The notes beneath the pieces are model-generated. The model was not told the DNA's origin. It did no database searches and saw nothing but the letters and a program-made list of their open reading frames with translations. Position numbers and translations under genes: made by a program. From an uncultured Sphingomonadaceae bacterium (GTDB lineage Bacteria; Pseudomonadota; Alphaproteobacteria; Sphingomonadales; Sphingomonadaceae), in the NCBI GenBank assembly GCA_902806235.1, contig CADCVW010000047.1, forward strand, positions 1 through 64,000: a DNA stretch of 64,000 nucleotides, written 5' to 3'. Below, piece by piece: positions 14,755 through 30,855 of the stretch; positions within the stretch are counted from its first letter, which is position 1, and every line of letters begins with the position of its first letter.

Positions 14755-16134
14755 ATGACCGCCACGGCCGCGCCGGACGACGCCATTCCCTTGGCCGCGC
14801 CGCCACATGCGCCCGACGTCCTCGGCCACCCGCGTGGGCTATGGTTTCTGGCCTTCGCCGAGGCTTGGGAGCGCTTCTCCTATTACGGGATGCAGGCGCT
14901 GCTCGCGCTGTACATGGTCAAATATCTGCTGCTCCCCGGCAACGTCGAGCGCGTAGCGCTGTTCGAGCCGCTGCGCGCGCTCTACGGCGGGATCGACGGC
15001 CAGCCGCTCGCCTCCGCGGTGGTCGGCACCTATTTCGCGCTCGTCTACCTCACGCCCATCCTTGGCGGGCTGATCGCCGACCGCTTCATCGGCCGGCGCC
15101 GCGCGGTGCTGCTCGGCGCGATCATCATGTCGCTCGGCCATTTCCTGATGGCTTGGGAGGCGGCGTTCCTATTTGCGCTGCTCGCGCTCGTGGTCGGCGT
15201 GGGCCTGTTTAAGGGCAACATCGCGAGCCAAGTGGGGGCGCTTTACGCCGACACCGACTTGCGCCGCGCCGACGCCTTCCAGATCTTCTACCTCGGCATC
15301 AACGCGGGGGTGATCGCCGCGCCCCTAATCGTCGGCACGCTGGGCGAGACGGTGGGCTGGCACTGGGGCTTCGGCGCGGCGGGCGTCGGCATGCTCCTCG
15401 GGCTGCTGATCTACGTCGCCGGCCAGCGCCACCTGCCGCCCGAGCCCGCCCGCCTCGCGGCCGGCGCGCCCCGCGCCGCGCTCGACCGGCGCGAGAAGCT
15501 GGCGGTCGCCGCCTTGCTGCTGCTCATTCCGGTGCTGGCGCTGGCGATCGTGCCGAACAACCAGATCTTCAACGTTTACCTCGTCTGGGGCGACCGCGAC
15601 TTCGACCTGAACTTCCTCGGGACGGAGCTGCCGACCACTTGGCTTGTCACGCTGGACGCCTTGGTGAGCGTGACCTTCCTCGCGCTGGTCGCGCTTTTCT
15701 ACCGCTGGTGGGCGAAGCGCCGTGCCGAGCCCGACGAACTCGGCAAGCTGATCATCGGCTCCGCCTTCTCCGTCGCCGGGATGCTCTGCCTGTTCGCGGC
15801 CGCCGCGACCAAGGGCGAAGGCGAAAAGATCGGGCTCGGCTGGCCCGTGCTGTTCCACGTGCTCAACAGCATCGGCTTCGCGCACATGTTGCCCGTCAGC
15901 CTCGCGTTGTTCGCGCGGCTCGCGCCGGCTTCGCTCAACGCCACGGTGATCGGCCTCTACTACCTCGCCTTCTTCGCCGCCAACGCGCTGGTCGGCTGGG
16001 TCGGCGGCTTCTTCGAAAGCCTGCCCACCACGACCTTCTGGCTTCTCCACGCCGGCTTCGCCGCGGCGGCGGGGACGGTGTTCCTGCTGTTCAAGCTGCT
16101 GCTCGCGCCGCGGCTGATGGCAGCGCCGGCCTAA
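14755..16134 (+). CDS. POT-family proton-coupled oligopeptide transporter
   Basis: This 459-residue MFS-type transporter of the POT/PTR2 family imports di- and tripeptides with protons. The diagnostic first-helix motif is present (AEAWERFSYYGMQALL, i.e. ExxERFxYYG). The second-loop motif GGLIADRFIGRRRAVLLG and FYLGINAGVIAAPLIVG are also conserved. About 12-14 hydrophobic helices are visible. GGAGGA ends just before the ATG at 14755. The window also carries two secreted S9 peptidases, which could supply its substrates. Confidence 0.93.
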   Translation: MTATAAPDDAIPLAAPPHAPDVLGHPRGLWFLAFAEAWERFSYYGMQALLALYMVKYLLLPGNVERVALFEPLRALYGGIDGQPLASAVVGTYFALVYLTPILGGLIADRFIGRRRAVLLGAIIMSLGHFLMAWEAAFLFALLALVVGVGLFKGNIASQVGALYADTDLRRADAFQIFYLGINAGVIAAPLIVGTLGETVGWHWGFGAAGVGMLLGLLIYVAGQRHLPPEPARLAAGAPRAALDRREKLAVAALLLLIPVLALAIVPNNQIFNVYLVWGDRDFDLNFLGTELPTTWLVTLDALVSVTFLALVALFYRWWAKRRAEPDELGKLIIGSAFSVAGMLCLFAAAATKGEGEKIGLGWPVLFHVLNSIGFAHMLPVSLALFARLAPASLNATVIGLYYLAFFAANALVGWVGGFFESLPTTTFWLLHAGFAAAAGTVFLLFKLLLAPRLMAAPA

Positions 16135-22927: not shown

Positions 22928-23610
22928 GAGCCCGCCCCCTCGCGCCACGCGAGCGTAATGGACATTCGCCGGTTCTTGGGGTCGTAGCGGTCGGCCGGGT
23001 TGTACGGCTCGCGGTCCGCCACCCCCTCGATCCGCGCGAAGCGCGCCGGGGCCAGGCCCGCCTCGCCCAGCGCCACCCGCGTCGCCTCCGCCCGCGCGGT
23101 GGACAGGAGCCAATTGCTCATGGTCCGCCCCGCCGCGTAGGGCAGCGCGTCCGTGTGGCCGCGCACAATCACCTGGTTGGGCACGCCAGCCACCACCTGC
23201 GCCACCGCGCCCAGCAGTTCGCGCGCTTCACCCGACAAGCTGTCGGTGCCCAGCCGGAACATGGAGAAGTCGGCCTCGTCGACGAGGTCGATCCACAGGC
23301 CTTCGCGCGTGTCGGTAAAGCGTACCTTGCCGCTCAGCCGGCGCAGCGCCGCCTTCGCCGCCATGTGCTCCGTCAGCCGCTTCTTCAGCGCCTCGAAGCG
23401 CTTCCGGTCCTCCGCCCGGGCCTCGCCCTCATTCGGGCCGCCCTCGGTACCCTGCGGGATGACAATGGAGCGGCTTCCCGTGTGCGTCGCCCCGTGCGGG
23501 TAACTGTCCTTGGCGATGATCGAGTCGCCGCCGAGCAGGCAGTTGGAGCCCGCGCTGTTCTGCCTCAATTCGACCAGGGTCGGCGTGAAATCGTCGGTGA
23601 GCCAAGTCGT
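22924..23610 (-). pseudogene. motB: motB, N-terminally truncated flagellar stator/OmpA-domain gene
   Basis: The frame carries DDFTPTLVELRQNSAGSNCLLGGDSIIAKDSYPHGA, a charged linker, and an OmpA/MotB peptidoglycan-binding domain with QVIVRGHTDALPYAAGRTMSNWLLSTARAEATRVAL and NRRMSITLAW. Intact MotB has about 60 more residues with the plasma-membrane helix that forms the proton channel. Here the homology begins abruptly at about 23605 and an in-frame TAA lies just upstream. No motA or other flagellar gene is in the window. A TTG at 23568 could start a soluble product, but without the membrane segment it cannot be a stator. Confidence 0.75.
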
Positions 23611-23677
23611 AGGCGGCGCAGGAGTTTGCCCGGCGCGGGCGGTTTACAAGCGTGCCGCCCTTCCCCACCGACGCCCC

Positions 23678-24070
23678 ATGCCGATCGCCGCCCTCACCCT
23701 CGCCGTAGTCGGCCTCGACTTCCCCAACGAGCGCGGCCCCGCGCGGCGCTTCGAGCTGGCGCTGATCCGGCCGGGGGAGCCGGTGGAGCTCCGGCCGGAG
23801 CCGCGCAACCCAGCGGACCCGCGCGCGGTGGGGGTGTGGAGCGCGCGCGGCGTGCGGCTCGGCTTCCTGTCCGCCGAACGGTGCGGCTGGATCGGCGGGA
23901 TGATCCGCGACGGGCGCGAGGTGCGGGCGGCGTTCCAGGGGACGGCGGGGCGCGCGGCGTTCGTCCGCGTCGCCTTCGACGGGGCGGAGCCGGTGCTGCC
24001 GACGGTGGGCCCGGCAGGGCCGGAGCGGGCCGACGACGGCTTCTGGCCGGACGAGCCGCCGAGCGATTGA
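23678..24070 (+). CDS. HIRAN-domain protein
   Basis: This 130-residue protein shows the HIRAN pattern VVGLDFPNERGPARRFELALIRPGEPVELRPEPRNPADPRAVGVWS, GVRLGFLSAERCGWIGGMI. The domain recognises DNA ends in helicases such as HLTF, but single-domain bacterial forms are of unknown role. The C-terminus is acidic and Pro-rich (ADDGFWPDEPPSD). ATG 23678 begins just before the domain. It neighbours the truncated motB. Confidence 0.78.
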   Translation: MPIAALTLAVVGLDFPNERGPARRFELALIRPGEPVELRPEPRNPADPRAVGVWSARGVRLGFLSAERCGWIGGMIRDGREVRAAFQGTAGRAAFVRVAFDGAEPVLPTVGPAGPERADDGFWPDEPPSD

Positions 24071-24204: not shown

Positions 24205-25212
24205 GTGATCCCCGCGCCCTTCCTCCTCTACCTCGGGCACGGCGCGGACCCGCTCGGCATCAAGACCTCGCGCGGGCTGGCCGAGTTCCGGCGCGGGGAC
24301 TGCGTGGGCGAGTTCCGGTCTGACGAAGGCCCGCTCACCCTAGGGCTGCCGCGGCTCGGGATTCGGGAGGCCGCCGCCCTGGGCGCGCGCACCCTGGTGC
24401 TCGGTATCGCCGGGCCGGGCGGGCGGCTGCCGGCCGAGTTGGTCGACGACGCGGCTGAGGCATTGGAAGCCGGACTGCACGTCGCCGCCGGGCTGCACGA
24501 GCGGCTGCGCGACCAGCCGCGGCTCATCGCGCTGGCCGCCGCGCGCGGGCTCGAGCTGTTCGACGTGCGCGATCCGCCGGCGGACCTCGCGGTCGGCACG
24601 GGCGCGCCGCGCGCGGGACGACGGCTGCTCACCGTCGGCACCGACTGCTCCGTCGGCAAGATGTACGCGACCCTCGCGCTGGCGCGGGGCCTGCGGGCCC
24701 GCGGCCTTTCCGCCGACTTCCGCGCGACGGGGCAGACGGGCATCCTGATCGCCGGGAGCGGCGTGCCCGTCGACGCGGTGGTCGCCGACTTCATCTCCGG
24801 CGCGATCGAGCGGCTCGCGCCCGCGCGCGACGACGGCGGCTGGGACCTGATCGAGGGGCAGGGCTCGCTGTTCCACCCGTCCTTCGCCGGCGTTTCGCTC
24901 GGGCTGCTGCACGGCGCGCAGGCGGAGGCGCTGGTGCTCTGCCACGAGCCGGGGCGGCCGCACCTGCGGCTGCTGCCCGGCTTCCCGGTGCCGGGCCTTG
25001 CCGAGTGCCTGGCGCGCAACCTGGAGGCGGCGCGGCTCACCAGCGCGCACGTCCGTGCCGTCGGCGTCTGCCTGAACACCTCCGCGATGGCCCCCGCCGA
25101 CGCGCGCCGGCTGTGCGCGGAAACGGAGGACGCGCTGGGCCTGCCCTGCACGGACCCGATCGCCTTCGGCGTCGATCCCATCATCGACCGGCTGCCGTGC
25201 CCCGCGTCCTGA
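24205..25212 (+). CDS. dgcN: D-glutamate N-acetyltransferase-like protein (DUF1611)
   Basis: A 335-residue DUF1611 protein. An N-terminal Rossmann-like domain is followed by a P-loop-type motif, TVGTDCSVGKMYATLALA (about residues 144-160), and LIEGQGSLFHPSFAGVSLGLLHG. DgcN is reported to acetylate D-glutamate with acetyl-CoA, the first step of a D-Glu catabolic route completed by DgcA. The start is taken as GTG at 24205 because the family N-terminus (PAPFLLYLGH) begins there. The 3' end overlaps dgcA by 16 bases. Confidence 0.83.
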   Translation: MIPAPFLLYLGHGADPLGIKTSRGLAEFRRGDCVGEFRSDEGPLTLGLPRLGIREAAALGARTLVLGIAGPGGRLPAELVDDAAEALEAGLHVAAGLHERLRDQPRLIALAAARGLELFDVRDPPADLAVGTGAPRAGRRLLTVGTDCSVGKMYATLALARGLRARGLSADFRATGQTGILIAGSGVPVDAVVADFISGAIERLAPARDDGGWDLIEGQGSLFHPSFAGVSLGLLHGAQAEALVLCHEPGRPHLRLLPGFPVPGLAECLARNLEAARLTSAHVRAVGVCLNTSAMAPADARRLCAETEDALGLPCTDPIAFGVDPIIDRLPCPAS

Positions 25213-26186
25213 CCGTCCGGGCCGCGCGCTTCCCGCTCGCTCGGCCGTTCCGCATCGCGCGCGGCGTCAAAACGGCGGCGGACGTGATCGTGGTGGAGCT
25301 GGGCGGGGGCGACGTCACCGGCCGTGGCGAAGGCGTCCCCTACCCGCGCTACGGCGAGAGCGTGAAGGGCGCGCTCGCCGCGGTGGAGGCGGCGCGGGCG
25401 CTGGTGGAGGGGGGCGCGGGCCGGGCCGAGCTGCTTCAAGCCATGCCGCCCGGCGCGGCGCGCAACGCGGTCGACTGCGCGTTGTGGGACCTGGAGGCTC
25501 GGGCTGCGGGGCGGGACGTCGCCGCTCTGCTCGGCGCGCCCCGGCCGGGGCCGCTCGCCAGCGCACTCACCATCGGCTTGGACGCGCCGGACGCGATGGC
25601 GCGAGCGGCGGCGGCGGTCGCGGACGCGCCGCTCCTGAAGGTGAAGGTCGACGCGGACGACCCCGAAGCGCGGCTGCGGGCGGTGCGCGCGGCGGCGGCG
25701 CGGGCCGCGCTGATCGTCGATCCCAACGAAAGCTGGGATCGCCCGCTCGTGGAGCGGCTGGGGCCGGCGCTGGCGGCGCTGCGCGTCGACCTGCTGGAGC
25801 AGCCGGTGCCCGCGGGCGAAGACGATTGGCTTGAGGGCTACGTCGCGCCCGTGCCGATCTGCGCCGACGAGGCTGTGCACACCGCAGCCGACCTGCCCGT
25901 CGTCGCCCGCCGCTACCAGGCGGTGAACGTCAAGCTCGACAAGGCGGGCGGGCTGACGGCCGCGCTGGAGCTCGCGGCGGCCGCGCGCGGTGCGGGGCTC
26001 CGGCTGATGTGCGGTTGCATGATCAGCTCCTCCCTGTCGATCGCCCCCGCGCTCCACGTCGCGCGGGCCGCGGACTTCGTCGATTTGGACGGCCCGCTGT
26101 GGCTGGCCGACGACCGGCCGGGCGGGGTGCGCGACGAGGGCGGCGTCCTGCACCCGCCCGCGCCGGGCTTCTGGGGGGAGGCATGA
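25197..26186 (+). CDS. dgcA: N-acetyl-D-glutamate racemase / dipeptide-epimerase-like enolase-superfamily protein
   Basis: A 329-residue enolase-superfamily enzyme with a complete active-site set: the KxK motif LLKVKVDAD (Lys148, Lys150), metal ligands in IVDPNES (Asp175), LLEQPVP (Glu201) and ICADEA (Asp224), and a second base in VNVKLDKAGG (Lys246/249 region). It is closest to the dipeptide epimerases, and partnership with dgcN indicates DgcA, which racemises N-acetyl-D-glutamate. The start is GTG at 25197 inside dgcN; the stop overlaps the transporter ATG (ATGA). Confidence 0.83.
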   Translation: MPRVLTVRAARFPLARPFRIARGVKTAADVIVVELGGGDVTGRGEGVPYPRYGESVKGALAAVEAARALVEGGAGRAELLQAMPPGAARNAVDCALWDLEARAAGRDVAALLGAPRPGPLASALTIGLDAPDAMARAAAAVADAPLLKVKVDADDPEARLRAVRAAAARAALIVDPNESWDRPLVERLGPALAALRVDLLEQPVPAGEDDWLEGYVAPVPICADEAVHTAADLPVVARRYQAVNVKLDKAGGLTAALELAAAARGAGLRLMCGCMISSSLSIAPALHVARAADFVDLDGPLWLADDRPGGVRDEGGVLHPPAPGFWGEA

Positions 26187-27505
26187 CGCACGCCCTCCGC
26201 GCCTGGTTCGCGATCCCCTTATGGAAGCGCGTCCTCGGGGCGCTGCTTCTCGGCCTTCTCCTCGCCGCGGTCGCGCCGGAGGCGGCACCCGCGGTGGCGT
26301 GGGCCGGCGAGCTGTTCGTGCGCGCGATCCGCATGCTGGTCGTGCCCGTGGTGCTCGTCACGGTGGCCGCCGGTATCACCGCGCTCGGCGACCCCAGGCG
26401 CATCGGCGGGCTCGGCGGACGCGCGGTGGGGCTGTTCGCGCTGACCACGGCGGCAGCCGTATCCGTCGGGATGGCGGTCGCCGGCCTCGTCGGCCCGGGC
26501 GTGGGGGCGCCGCTCGGCGGCGCCGTGCCGAAGGTGCTGGGCGAGCCCCCTTCCCCCTACGACCAGCTGCTGGGCATCGTCCCCACCAATATCTTCGAAG
26601 CGCTGGCGAAGGGCGACATGCTCGCCGTGCTGTTCGTCGCGATCCTGCTCGGCGTCGGCGCACTCCTGGCGGGGGAAGCGGGGCGGCCCCTCGCGGAGCT
26701 GCTCCGCTCGGCGTCGGCGGTACTTCTCAAGGTGGTCGGCGTGGTCATGGAGTTCACGCCCTTCGGCGTGTTCGCGCTGGTCGCCAACGCTGTCGCAGCC
26801 GCAGGCGCCGCGGTGTTCGTCAACGTCGGCTGGCTGGCCTTGGCGGTCCTGCTCGGCTCGACTGCGCAGGTGCTCCTCGTCCACCTGCCCTTGCTCCGCT
26901 TCGCCGCGCGGGTGCCGGTGGGGCGTTTCTATCGCGGCACGGCCGACGCCCTCCTCGTCGCCTTCTCCACCGCGTCGAGCTCGGCGACGCTCCCCGCGGC
27001 AATGCGCGCGGCTGAACGGCTCGGCGTCGGCCGTCCGGTGTTCTCCACCGTGCTGCCGCTCGGCGCGAGCATCGGCAAGGACGGCACCGCGATGTACGTC
27101 GGGCTGCTCAGCGTTTTCACGCTGCAGGCGCTCGGCCAGCCGCTCACGCCCGCGACCTACGCGCTGGTGCTGCTCACAGGCGCGCTCGCCGCCTTCGGCA
27201 CCGCGCCCGTGCCCTCGGCGAGCCTGTTCATGCTCGCCGCCGTGCTCTCGGCGGTCGGCGTGGCCCCGGAGCAGACGTCGCTGGTGGTCGGCTTCGTGCT
27301 GCCCTTTGACCGGCTGCTCGACATGACCCGCACCGTGCCGAGCGCGAGCGCCAACCTTACAGTGGCGACCACGGTGGCGCGCTGGGAAGGGGAGCTGGAC
27401 GAGTGGGCGATGCGGGGGAGCGAAGAAGGTCGGAGAGTTGACCTGCCGCCGGCCGCAGTCGATCCACGCGTCGCCGGCGGCGACGAGCTTGCGGAGGCGA
27501 GGTGA
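26183..27505 (+). CDS. DAACS-family dicarboxylate/amino acid:cation symporter
   Basis: A 440-residue glutamate/dicarboxylate symporter (SLC1/GltP-DctA type). Conserved features include FVRAIRMLVVPVVLVTV, ALAKGDMLAVLF, the Ser-rich hairpin AFSTASSSATLPAAMRAA, LPLGASIGKDGTAMYV and DRLLDMTRTVPSASANL, where the Asp and Arg bind substrate. The usual NMDGT motif reads GKDGT here. The ATG overlaps the dgcA stop, so uptake and conversion of D-glutamate are probably co-expressed. The last 35 residues are hydrophilic and unconserved. Confidence 0.92.
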   Translation: MTHALRAWFAIPLWKRVLGALLLGLLLAAVAPEAAPAVAWAGELFVRAIRMLVVPVVLVTVAAGITALGDPRRIGGLGGRAVGLFALTTAAAVSVGMAVAGLVGPGVGAPLGGAVPKVLGEPPSPYDQLLGIVPTNIFEALAKGDMLAVLFVAILLGVGALLAGEAGRPLAELLRSASAVLLKVVGVVMEFTPFGVFALVANAVAAAGAAVFVNVGWLALAVLLGSTAQVLLVHLPLLRFAARVPVGRFYRGTADALLVAFSTASSSATLPAAMRAAERLGVGRPVFSTVLPLGASIGKDGTAMYVGLLSVFTLQALGQPLTPATYALVLLTGALAAFGTAPVPSASLFMLAAVLSAVGVAPEQTSLVVGFVLPFDRLLDMTRTVPSASANLTVATTVARWEGELDEWAMRGSEEGRRVDLPPAAVDPRVAGGDELAEAR

Positions 27506-27506
27506 T

Positions 27507-28739
27507 ATGCGCAGCGGAATGCCGAAACCCGGCGAGTTCCTGTGGGGCACAGCGACCGCCGCGCACCAGATCGAGGGCAACAACGTCAACTCGGATTTCT
27601 GGGTCGTCGAGCATGCGACGCCCACCTTGTTCCGCGAACCTTCGGGCGACGCCTGCGACAGCTACCACCGCTACAACGAGGACGCCGCGCTGGCCGCCGG
27701 GCTCGGCTTCAACGCGCACCGTTTCGGCATTGAATGGGCGCGGATCGAGCCCGAGCCGGGGCGGTTCTCCGCGGCGGCGCTGGACCATTACGCAAGGGTG
27801 CTTGAGAGCTGCCGCCGCCACGGGCTCGCGCCTATGGTAACGCTGAGCCACTGGACCGTGCCGCGATGGTTCGCGGCGCGCGGCGGCTTCGAGCAAGCGG
27901 ACAGCGTCGACCTGTTCGCCCGCTTCGCCGACAAGGTCGGTCGCCGGCTGGGCGGCCTGATGACGGCGGCGACCACGTTCAACGAAGCCAACATCGGCCG
28001 CCTGGCGCGCGTCCTGTTCAACGCGGACGGCCCCCGGTTCCGGGCGGCGTCGCGCGCCATGTTCGCGGCGGCGGCCGAGGCGTCCGGTTCCGATCGGTTC
28101 GCGTCCGTGCTGTTTCCGGACCTGGCCAGATCTGAGGAGAACCAGATCGCGGCACACGTCGCCGCCGTGCAGGCGCTCAAGGCCGCGGACGACCTGCCCG
28201 TCGGGCTCACCTTGACCATGCAGGCCGTCGAGGCCGCGGAGCCCGGGGCGGACGTCGAGGCGTTCACCGACGAACTCTACGGCGCCTGGCTCGGCGCGGC
28301 CGAGCCCTGCGACTTCGTCGGCGTGCAGACTTACACGCGCATCCGCGTGGGCGCCGCGGGGCGGCTGCCGCCGCCGGAGGGCGCGGAAAGGACGGGGGCG
28401 GGTTATGAATTCTACCCGCAGGCGCTCGGCGACACGATCAGGTTCGCGGCCGAACGGTTGAGGAAGCCCATCTACGTGACCGAGAACGGCATCGCGACCG
28501 ACGACGATGCCCGGCGCGTGGCGTATATTGACGCCGCCCTGGCCGAGCTGAGGCGGGCGCAGGCCGACGGGATCGACGTGCGCGGCTATTTCCACTGGTC
28601 CTTGCTGGATAATTTCGAGTGGACGGCCGGCTATTCCCAGAAGTTCGGGCTCGTCGCGGTGGATCGCGCGTCGTTCGAGCGCACGCCGAAGCCGAGCGCC
28701 CGGCACCTGGGGCGCATCGCCTCGAGTGCGCGGACCTAG
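27507..28739 (+). CDS. Glycoside hydrolase family 1 beta-glucosidase-like enzyme
   Basis: This 410-residue GH1 enzyme retains both catalytic glutamates: Glu160 in TTFNEAN (acid/base; the usual NEP is NEA here) and Glu326 in YVTENG (nucleophile). FLWGTATAAHQIEGNN at the start and FHWSLLDNFEWTAGYSQKFGL near the end are family hallmarks. No signal peptide is visible, so it is cytoplasmic. The ATG lies one base after the symporter stop, with GGAGG upstream, making it the last gene of the dgcN operon although its chemistry is unrelated. Confidence 0.92.
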   Translation: MRSGMPKPGEFLWGTATAAHQIEGNNVNSDFWVVEHATPTLFREPSGDACDSYHRYNEDAALAAGLGFNAHRFGIEWARIEPEPGRFSAAALDHYARVLESCRRHGLAPMVTLSHWTVPRWFAARGGFEQADSVDLFARFADKVGRRLGGLMTAATTFNEANIGRLARVLFNADGPRFRAASRAMFAAAAEASGSDRFASVLFPDLARSEENQIAAHVAAVQALKAADDLPVGLTLTMQAVEAAEPGADVEAFTDELYGAWLGAAEPCDFVGVQTYTRIRVGAAGRLPPPEGAERTGAGYEFYPQALGDTIRFAAERLRKPIYVTENGIATDDDARRVAYIDAALAELRRAQADGIDVRGYFHWSLLDNFEWTAGYSQKFGLVAVDRASFERTPKPSARHLGRIASSART

Positions 28740-28791: not shown

Positions 28792-30855
28792 TCACGGCCG
28801 CCGCGTCAGCCTCCGCTCGAAGAACCCTTCCGTCGCCCGGAACGCCCGCAGCCAGTTGTCGTGCCGGAAGAAGCCGTGCCGCTCGTTCGGCAGCACCAGC
28901 TCCTCGTAGGGCACCCCCCGCGCTGCCAGCTCGCGCGCGAGCAGCAGCGACTGGGCGAAGGGGACGTTGCGGTCGTCGTCGCCGTGGATCAGCAGCACCG
29001 GCGAGCGCCAGCGGTCGATGGCGGCCAAAGGCGAGCTGTCCCACTGGAGCCGCCGCGCCCGCTCCTGCGCTTCCGGCGACAGCGTGTTGGCGACGGGGCG
29101 GAGCAGGCTGTGCACGCCGTGCAGGTCGACGCCCCCGGCGAACAGGGCGCTGTCCCGGGCGAGCGCGAGCGCCGCGAGATAGCCGCCCCAGCTGCCGCCC
29201 CAGACGCCGATCCGGGCGGAATCGGCGCTCGGCTGCGCGGCGAGCCACCTGCCGGCGGCGAGCACGTCGCGGTACTCGGACGCGCCCTCGCGGCCCGTCT
29301 CCGCCGCGTCGCGCCAGCGCAGCCCGTAGCCGGTGCCGCCGCGGTAATTGACGGACAGCACGTGGAAGCCCCGCGCGGCGAGGTGCTGGTTTAAAAGGTA
29401 GGTGCGCGAGTAATAAGCGGACGGGTGGAAGCCGCGCAGCATCTGCCGCCGCGGGCCGCCGTGGATGAAGACGAGCGCGGGGCAGCGGCGCGGCGCGGCG
29501 CATCCCCGCGCGCGGAAGAACTGGCCGCGCACCGCTAGCCCATCCGTCGCGCGGAAGGTGACGGACTCGGGCGCCGCCGCGCGGGGCATCGCGGCGGGCG
29601 GAGCGAGCGGCGTCGCGCGGTCGCCGAGCAGGACGGGGTGCGCCGGACTGTCGGCGTCCGTCGCCACCGCCGCCACCGCGCTCCCCGCCACGACGGGCAG
29701 CGAGTGGATCGCGTCGCCCGCGCCCGCCCCCAGCCGGACGGGCGCGCCCGCTGCCCCGCGCCGCCACACGCGCCGCCCGTCGGGCTCGTCGGCGTTGGCG
29801 GCGTAGAGCAGCGCGCGGTCGTCCGGGCCGAGGAGGAAAGTCTCCACCTCGTACTCGCCGGCGGTGAGCGGCTGCGGCGTCCCGCCCTTCGCGGCGTCGA
29901 GCGCGTGGACGTGCAGCCAGCCCGTCCGCTCCCACGGGAACAGGATGCGCCCGTCCCGGCTCCAGTGAAGGTTGCGGCTCCGCGTCCCCGCCCAGCGCCC
30001 GCCGGGGCCGGGCGGCGCGGCCCACAGGACGCGGGCGCCGCCGCTGGCGGCGTCGACGACGCGGATCGACCACCAAGCGCCGACGTCCGGCGCAGTCCCC
30101 GGCGGCGGGCTCATGTGGCGGACGAAGGCGAGCTCGCGCCCGTCGGGCGAAAAGGCGGGCTCGGCGGCATGGCCGAGCCCCGGATCGAGGTAGCGCAGCC
30201 GCGGCTCGGTCCCGTTCGTGGGAGTCGGGTCGAGCAGCGCGACGTAGCCATGCTCGCCGCGGTCCTCGACGAAGGCCAGCCGCGCGCCGTCGGGCGACCA
30301 GAGAAGGCGCGACGCGCTCCCCTTCACCCGGGCGAGGCGGCGGGGCGGCGCGCCGCGCGTCCAGAGCCGGATCTCGTTCCCCTCCAGAAAGGCGAGCCGC
30401 TCGCCGCCGGGCGCGAAGGCGGGCGAGTGGCCCTCGCCGACCAATTCGGGTGCCCCGCCCGTCGTCGACACGACGAACAGCTGCTGCGGCGGCGCGACCG
30501 GGGCCGCGCCGGCGTTCGGTAGCGCCTCGTCCGGCCACTCCTCGTCGCCACCGCGGACGAAGGCGAGCAGCCGCCCGTCGTCGCTGAGCGCCAAGCCGTG
30601 GAGCTGCCGACCGTCGTCCTCCGCGAAGCTCGTGAGGCGGCGGGCGGGGCGGCCGGGCCCGCCGACCCACAGGTTGCGGACGCCCGCCCGGTTCTCGACC
30701 CAAGCGAAGAGCGGAACCTGCTTCGCTCCGGTCAGCCCGCCCGCGTGCGGCAGCGCGAGCGCCTCGGCGAGCGGGTCGCGCTGCGCGAGGACGGGCTGGG
30801 CAAGCAGGAGCAGGAGGTGCCAGGGCCAGCGGCGGAGGAGGGAGCGCAGCGTCAT
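28792..30855 (-). CDS. S9-family prolyl oligopeptidase, exported
   Basis: A 687-residue serine peptidase with a signal peptide (RRWPWHLLLLLAQPVLAQ), a WD40-like PD40 propeller (repeats such as SPDGARLAFVEDRG and AFSPDGRELAFVRH) and a C-terminal alpha/beta hydrolase. The triad is visible: Ser555 in GGSWGGYL, Asp628 in HGDDDRNVPF, His660 in NERHGF. Expected to act in the periplasm on short peptides. ATG 30855 starts at the signal peptide; the frame is open for another 1.3 kb upstream but that part is a shadow. Confidence 0.9.
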   Translation of the reverse strand: MTLRSLLRRWPWHLLLLLAQPVLAQRDPLAEALALPHAGGLTGAKQVPLFAWVENRAGVRNLWVGGPGRPARRLTSFAEDDGRQLHGLALSDDGRLLAFVRGGDEEWPDEALPNAGAAPVAPPQQLFVVSTTGGAPELVGEGHSPAFAPGGERLAFLEGNEIRLWTRGAPPRRLARVKGSASRLLWSPDGARLAFVEDRGEHGYVALLDPTPTNGTEPRLRYLDPGLGHAAEPAFSPDGRELAFVRHMSPPPGTAPDVGAWWSIRVVDAASGGARVLWAAPPGPGGRWAGTRSRNLHWSRDGRILFPWERTGWLHVHALDAAKGGTPQPLTAGEYEVETFLLGPDDRALLYAANADEPDGRRVWRRGAAGAPVRLGAGAGDAIHSLPVVAGSAVAAVATDADSPAHPVLLGDRATPLAPPAAMPRAAAPESVTFRATDGLAVRGQFFRARGCAAPRRCPALVFIHGGPRRQMLRGFHPSAYYSRTYLLNQHLAARGFHVLSVNYRGGTGYGLRWRDAAETGREGASEYRDVLAAGRWLAAQPSADSARIGVWGGSWGGYLAALALARDSALFAGGVDLHGVHSLLRPVANTLSPEAQERARRLQWDSSPLAAIDRWRSPVLLIHGDDDRNVPFAQSLLLARELAARGVPYEELVLPNERHGFFRHDNWLRAFRATEGFFERRLTRRP

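Follow-up and report, generated by a model that had tools for sequence, protein, structure and literature searches.

The window, a 64,000-nucleotide stretch of contig C47 from a 2.72-Mb assembly (112 contigs, 90% complete) of an uncultured Sphingomonadaceae bacterium, carries a tight run of four plus-strand genes, identified from the sequence and its list of open reading frames: dgcN, dgcA, an SDF/DAACS symporter gene and a GH1 gene (Table 1). The overlap between dgcN and dgcA is 16 bases, dgcA and the symporter gene share an ATGA, and 1 base lies between the symporter stop and the GH1 start. This is the layout described in the original prediction, and we infer from it that the four genes are co-transcribed. 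No promoter-like or terminator-like sites and no informative repeats were found in the region. Directly upstream of dgcN, Pfam identified a HIRAN-domain protein.

Table 1. Features of the dgcN-dgcA region, in window positions
Feature	Position	Strand	Description
POT-family peptide transporter	14821-16095		
HIRAN-domain protein	23510-24070		Pfam
dgcN	24205-25212	+	GTG start, TGA stop; D-glutamate N-acetyltransferase-type protein; DUF1611_N and P-loop DUF1611
dgcA	25197-26186	+	GTG start, TGA stop; predicted N-acetyl-D-glutamate racemase, enolase superfamily; MR_MLE_N and MR_MLE_C
SDF/DAACS symporter gene	26183-27505	+	ATG start, TGA stop; predicted D-glutamate importer
GKDGT codons (NMDGT in GltTk)	27074-27088	+	Lys at the Na2-liganding Met position, from alignments
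TM8 codons S387 to N391	27341-27355	+	At the GltTk N405 and D409 (Na1) positions, from alignments
GH1 gene	27507-28739	+	ATG start, TAG stop; beta-glucosidase-like
S9 peptidase gene	28792-30855	-	Convergent, after GH1; signal-like N-terminus; PF00326, 136.2 bits

DgcN (PF07755, 243 bits; PF17396, 76 bits) scored 481.9 bits against the NCBIfam DgcN equivalog, narrowly above the cut-off of 480 by only 2 bits, and its top PDB match was 7xrj. DgcA scored 432.3 bits against the racemase_DgcA equivalog, clearly above the cut-off of 400; against the L-Ala-D/L-Glu epimerase equivalog (NCBIfam PRK15129) it reached 299.5, below the cut-off of 343. Conserved residues were retained in both enzymes: DgcN showed no deviations in 126 near-invariant columns (83 homologue rows) and DgcA one in 86 (78 homologue rows), and the KxK, metal-ligand and second lysine motifs of DgcA were intact by eye.

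A DgcN-DgcA pathway for D-glutamate was reportedly described by Yu et al. in 2023 in ISME J. Both window enzymes match NCBI models named for that pathway, and their genes are likewise adjacent. The window operon differs by the added SDF symporter and GH1 genes, and by the absence of the LysR and amidohydrolase genes that are common in sphingomonads. In PMC11747546, the EC names for D-glutamate N-acetyltransferase and N-acetyl-D-glutamate racemase are used and a strain grew on D-glutamate; dgcN also features in PMC10845958 and in PMC12363236, which cites Yu et al. DUF1611 was in addition named in two papers devoted to other topics.

To assess gene context, we surveyed the 6 kb around dgcN in 98 loci, comprising a second locus of this genome on contig C67, 17 loci from family genomes and 80 named loci; at least two genomes occur twice, and the method favours sphingomonads because the queries come from one. 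A DgcA match lay near dgcN in 89 loci, a LysR gene in 75, an amidohydrolase (Amidohydro_3) in 62, an SDF symporter in 50 and a GH1 gene in one. The pairing of dgcN with dgcA is not due to chance, given the DgcA matches in 89/98 loci. Partner genes were fewer at the more distant dgcN loci. The usual sphingomonad set consists of dgcN-dgcA, a LysR gene, a symporter gene and a gene for a secreted amidohydrolase resembling D-aminoacylase or N-acyl-D-glutamate deacylase, and this set supports D-glutamate as the substrate. The C67 amidohydrolase has a signal-like N-terminus by eye; its best PDB match was D-aminoacylase (1rjp), with N-acyl-D-glutamate deacylase (3gip) among the next. With these matches, the link between the operon and D-amino acids does not depend on the names given to DgcN and DgcA. 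An S9 peptidase 55-69% identical to that of the window flanks the dgcN loci of several relatives and is absent beside the C67 dgcN.

The operon is most likely of a known type for the uptake and consumption of D-glutamate, and the reading we consider probable is that it serves D-glutamate import and racemisation, with the GH1 gene as an unrelated passenger. The substrate, the direction of transport and the ion coupling are all predicted from sequence. The symporter would carry D-glutamate into the cytoplasm, where DgcN, using acetyl-CoA, would acetylate it to N-acetyl-D-glutamate; DgcA would racemise this to N-acetyl-L-glutamate, and a housekeeping deacetylase would convert the product to L-glutamate. 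In most sphingomonad relatives, the secreted D-aminoacylase-like amidohydrolase of the locus would free D-glutamate from N-acyl-D-glutamate outside the membrane. Since the window lacks both the amidohydrolase and the LysR gene, its copy would rely on free D-glutamate or on the amidohydrolase of C67. On this reading, a sphingomonad would consume D-glutamate by way of a dedicated importer, joined in relatives by a likely secreted deacylase. The original prediction of D-glutamate uptake and racemisation is thus supported by the equivalog models, the intact conserved residues, the conserved gene set and the neighbour resembling N-acyl-D-glutamate deacylase in relatives.

The PDB relatives of DgcA, 4gfi among them, include the L-Ala-D/L-Glu epimerases 1jpd and 1jpm and leave room for a dipeptide substrate. 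The operon would then recycle murein dipeptides, with DgcA acting as an L-Ala-D/L-Glu epimerase and DgcN modifying the same dipeptide. DgcA is close to the E. coli epimerase 1jpd (259 bits), with a DLDGP stretch in both, and S12, M19 and TonB genes abound at the loci that a second DUF1611 clade, clade B, occupies in this genome and family. However, DgcA matched the DgcA model and not the epimerase model, the linked transporter is of the acidic-amino-acid type rather than a peptide transporter, the operon contains no dipeptidase, and the usual partner is a D-aminoacylase-like enzyme. We consider murein dipeptide recycling unlikely.

This genome contains four DUF1611 genes, and the contigs of the three that are not in the window carry all three amidohydrolase homologues found in it (E <= 1e-20). 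The C67 locus has the order LysR-dgcN-dgcA-amidohydrolase-SDF, and its DgcN and symporter are 80% and 78% identical to those of the window. Compared with this sphingomonad arrangement in C67 and relatives, the window has a DgcN 60-80% identical to theirs, the same symporter subfamily and, as in some relatives, the S9 flank; it differs in that two genes are missing, GH1 is added and branches are longer. Branch lengths were 0.28 for window DgcN against a median of 0.15, and 0.30 for the symporter against 0.093. The longer branches, together with the missing regulator and amidohydrolase, suggest that the window copy could be drifting to another role. Two dgcN copies were seen in 2 of the 58 dgcN-bearing family genomes (E <= 1e-110, with the best few candidates per genome scored). 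The window and C67 copies both fall within a 12-row clade in which the branching order is not resolved, and at 80% DgcN identity a recent duplication of C67 was unsupported. To probe for a binning artefact, we compared four-letter composition. Correlations with the two halves of the window were 0.81-0.92 for the stretches from C67, C62 and C4 and 0.63-0.84 for stretches of five relatives, which speaks weakly for one genome, as C67 also correlated with two relatives at 0.88.

We also consider it unlikely that the window copy is a diverged duplicate of C67 that handles a different acidic D-amino acid or an amide (D-Asp, D-Gln or D-Asn). The longer branches and the presence of two copies in one genome would fit such a change of substrate, but DgcN and DgcA deviate at 0 of 126 and 1 of 86 near-invariant columns. 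In addition, the C67 dgcA (L005:8918-9882) carries a 19-nt frameshifting gap relative to relatives, which is either genuine or an error of assembly; in this incomplete assembly, the window dgcA is thus the sole gene of its type that is intact.

The symporter belongs to the SDF family (PF00375, 317.6 bits, profile positions 1-387 of 387) and scored below every NCBIfam cut-off (GltP 174.8 against 638, DctA 204.4 against 513). Alignment with GltTk placed G313, K314, D315, S405 and N409 in the window protein, so that the sodium ligands N313, M314 and D409 are replaced by G, K and N, and N405 by Ser. According to PMC5110648, the ligands of Na1 in GltTk are the side chain of D409 and the backbone carbonyls of G309, N313 and N405; Na2 is bound by backbone carbonyls and M314, and Na3 by the side chains of N313 and D315 together with T94, S95 and Y91. 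PMC8431971 reports that the known sodium-coupled SLC1 carriers conserve Met314, whereas E. coli GltP and B. subtilis DctA, which are coupled to protons, have Leu there; M314C and M314S retain 3:1 coupling, indicating that Met alone does not decide stoichiometry. A search of PMC6482001 for the residue names gave no hit. In our alignment, positions 314 and 409 are Leu and Asn in E. coli GltP and DctA. The window symporter shares Asn at 409 with these proton-coupled proteins; unlike it, they keep the Asn residues at both 313 and 405. Arg401 is kept in the window symporter; the TM8 Asp and Arg are also found in GltTk and GltP, and the Thr of the TM7 motif is retained too. The residues that contact the amino and distal carboxyl groups, which we take to include the amino-binding TM8 Asp, are kept.

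GKDGT is not an oddity of the window gene: the motif occurs in 41 of 51 dgcN-linked symporter rows and is clade-wide. Lys or Arg at 314 accompanied Asn at 409 in 44 of the 51 rows, which are related by descent and include some genomes twice and so do not represent 44 independent events; Met with Asp was found in 7. A wider tally of SDF-like proteins at all loci covered 68 rows, one of them all gaps and four of them E. coli GltP and DctA, each entered twice. It gave 48 rows with a basic residue and Asn, 8 with Met and Asp, 7 with Leu and Asn and 1 with Met and Gln. Outside this pairing were 3 distant rows, with the motif FRATP and possibly misaligned, that had a basic residue and Asp.

The original prediction correctly picked out GKDGT in place of NMDGT; its suggestion that this may reflect altered substrate choice needs revision. 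Because the change of N-M to G-K and the paired TM8 change of D to N fall on sodium ligands while substrate contacts are kept, ion coupling is the likelier change, and the window symporter may have altered coupling with acidic amino-acid binding retained. The least expected part of the operon is this importer, in which a fixed positive charge seems to have taken over from the sodium-binding site. We tentatively suggest that sphingomonad dgcN-linked symporters could be a clade of carriers whose own Lys or Arg, at the Na2-liganding Met position and combined with Asn for the Na1-liganding Asp, stands in for bound sodium; import of D-glutamate would then be sodium-free, either proton-coupled or as facilitated flow. 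No mention of the GKDGT motif was found in the literature searched. The paired replacement of Met/Asp by Lys/Asn offers a natural test case for the loss of sodium coupling in SDF carriers, which is usually studied with point mutants.

The product of the fourth gene is a GH1 family member (PF00232, 229.7 bits, cut-off 22.6) with the catalytic Glu motifs TFNE and VTENG in its translation and no signal peptide evident by eye. It shares full-length similarity and both catalytic motifs with its PDB matches, the GH1 beta-glucosidases 6ier and 4r27. Among 397 family genomes, dgcN (E <= 1e-110) was present in 58, GH1 (E <= 1e-80) in 35 and both in 9, and among these 9 the two genes lay within 100 kb of each other in the window genome only. 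The dgcN-dgcA-DAACS-GH1 arrangement, for which a neighbourhood survey had been proposed, recurred nowhere else among the 58 dgcN genomes. S. liriopis (L120) has a GH1 gene, 55% identical, on the opposite strand and convergent with the symporter gene at a distance of about 2 kb past it; this is a second, if looser, dgcN-GH1 neighbourhood and counts against the passenger view. Clustering of 18 GH1 loci (the window and L120 included) gave one large protein family present in 11, whose L192 member is a TonB receptor. Pfam analysis of selected neighbours of GH1 kin found a carboxylesterase, an AMP-binding protein and a TonB receptor at L192, a carboxylesterase at L120 and other kinds at L069.

A recurrent role for GH1 in the operon was rejected, its adjacency being unique in the 397-genome survey and L120 the one other neighbourhood found. 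The unique adjacency, the location of its kin near other genes and the lack of an evident signal peptide suggest that GH1 is a passenger. It seems to have arrived behind the symporter gene by chance, and the two are probably translated together. Of the two roles first suggested for it, chance addition is favoured over substrate release, correcting a possible over-reading of the gene. A functional GH1 that frees a glycosylated D-glutamate derivative or a muropeptide sugar before racemisation is very unlikely: despite the one-base gap on the same strand, the lack of a detected terminator-like site in the region and the intact catalytic motifs, the enzyme is cytoplasmic by sequence, the operon has no sugar transporter, the GH1 kin examined sit in unrelated loci, and the adjacency is confined to this genome among the 58 with dgcN.

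The second DUF1611 clade comprises the C62 and C4 genes of this genome (L006 and L007) and L078-L097. Its members are about 50% identical to window DgcN, and the two that were scored fell below the DgcN cut-off. The 22 clade-B loci contained S12-type genes (18), TonB receptors (17), DgcA-like racemases (15), HTH-cupin regulators (15), M19 dipeptidases (12) and amidohydrolases (11), and look like D-peptide scavenging islands. The POT-family peptide transporter of the window is 39% identical to that of the C62 island. A polytopic membrane protein adjoins the clade-B DUF1611 gene at L007:8519-9673 and L085:7842-8939, and is present in 6 of the 21 other loci, L085 counted. Neither of the two members scanned had a Pfam or NCBIfam match; the protein presumably resembles a YkvI-type transporter. 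One genome, G084, carries seven DUF1611 genes.
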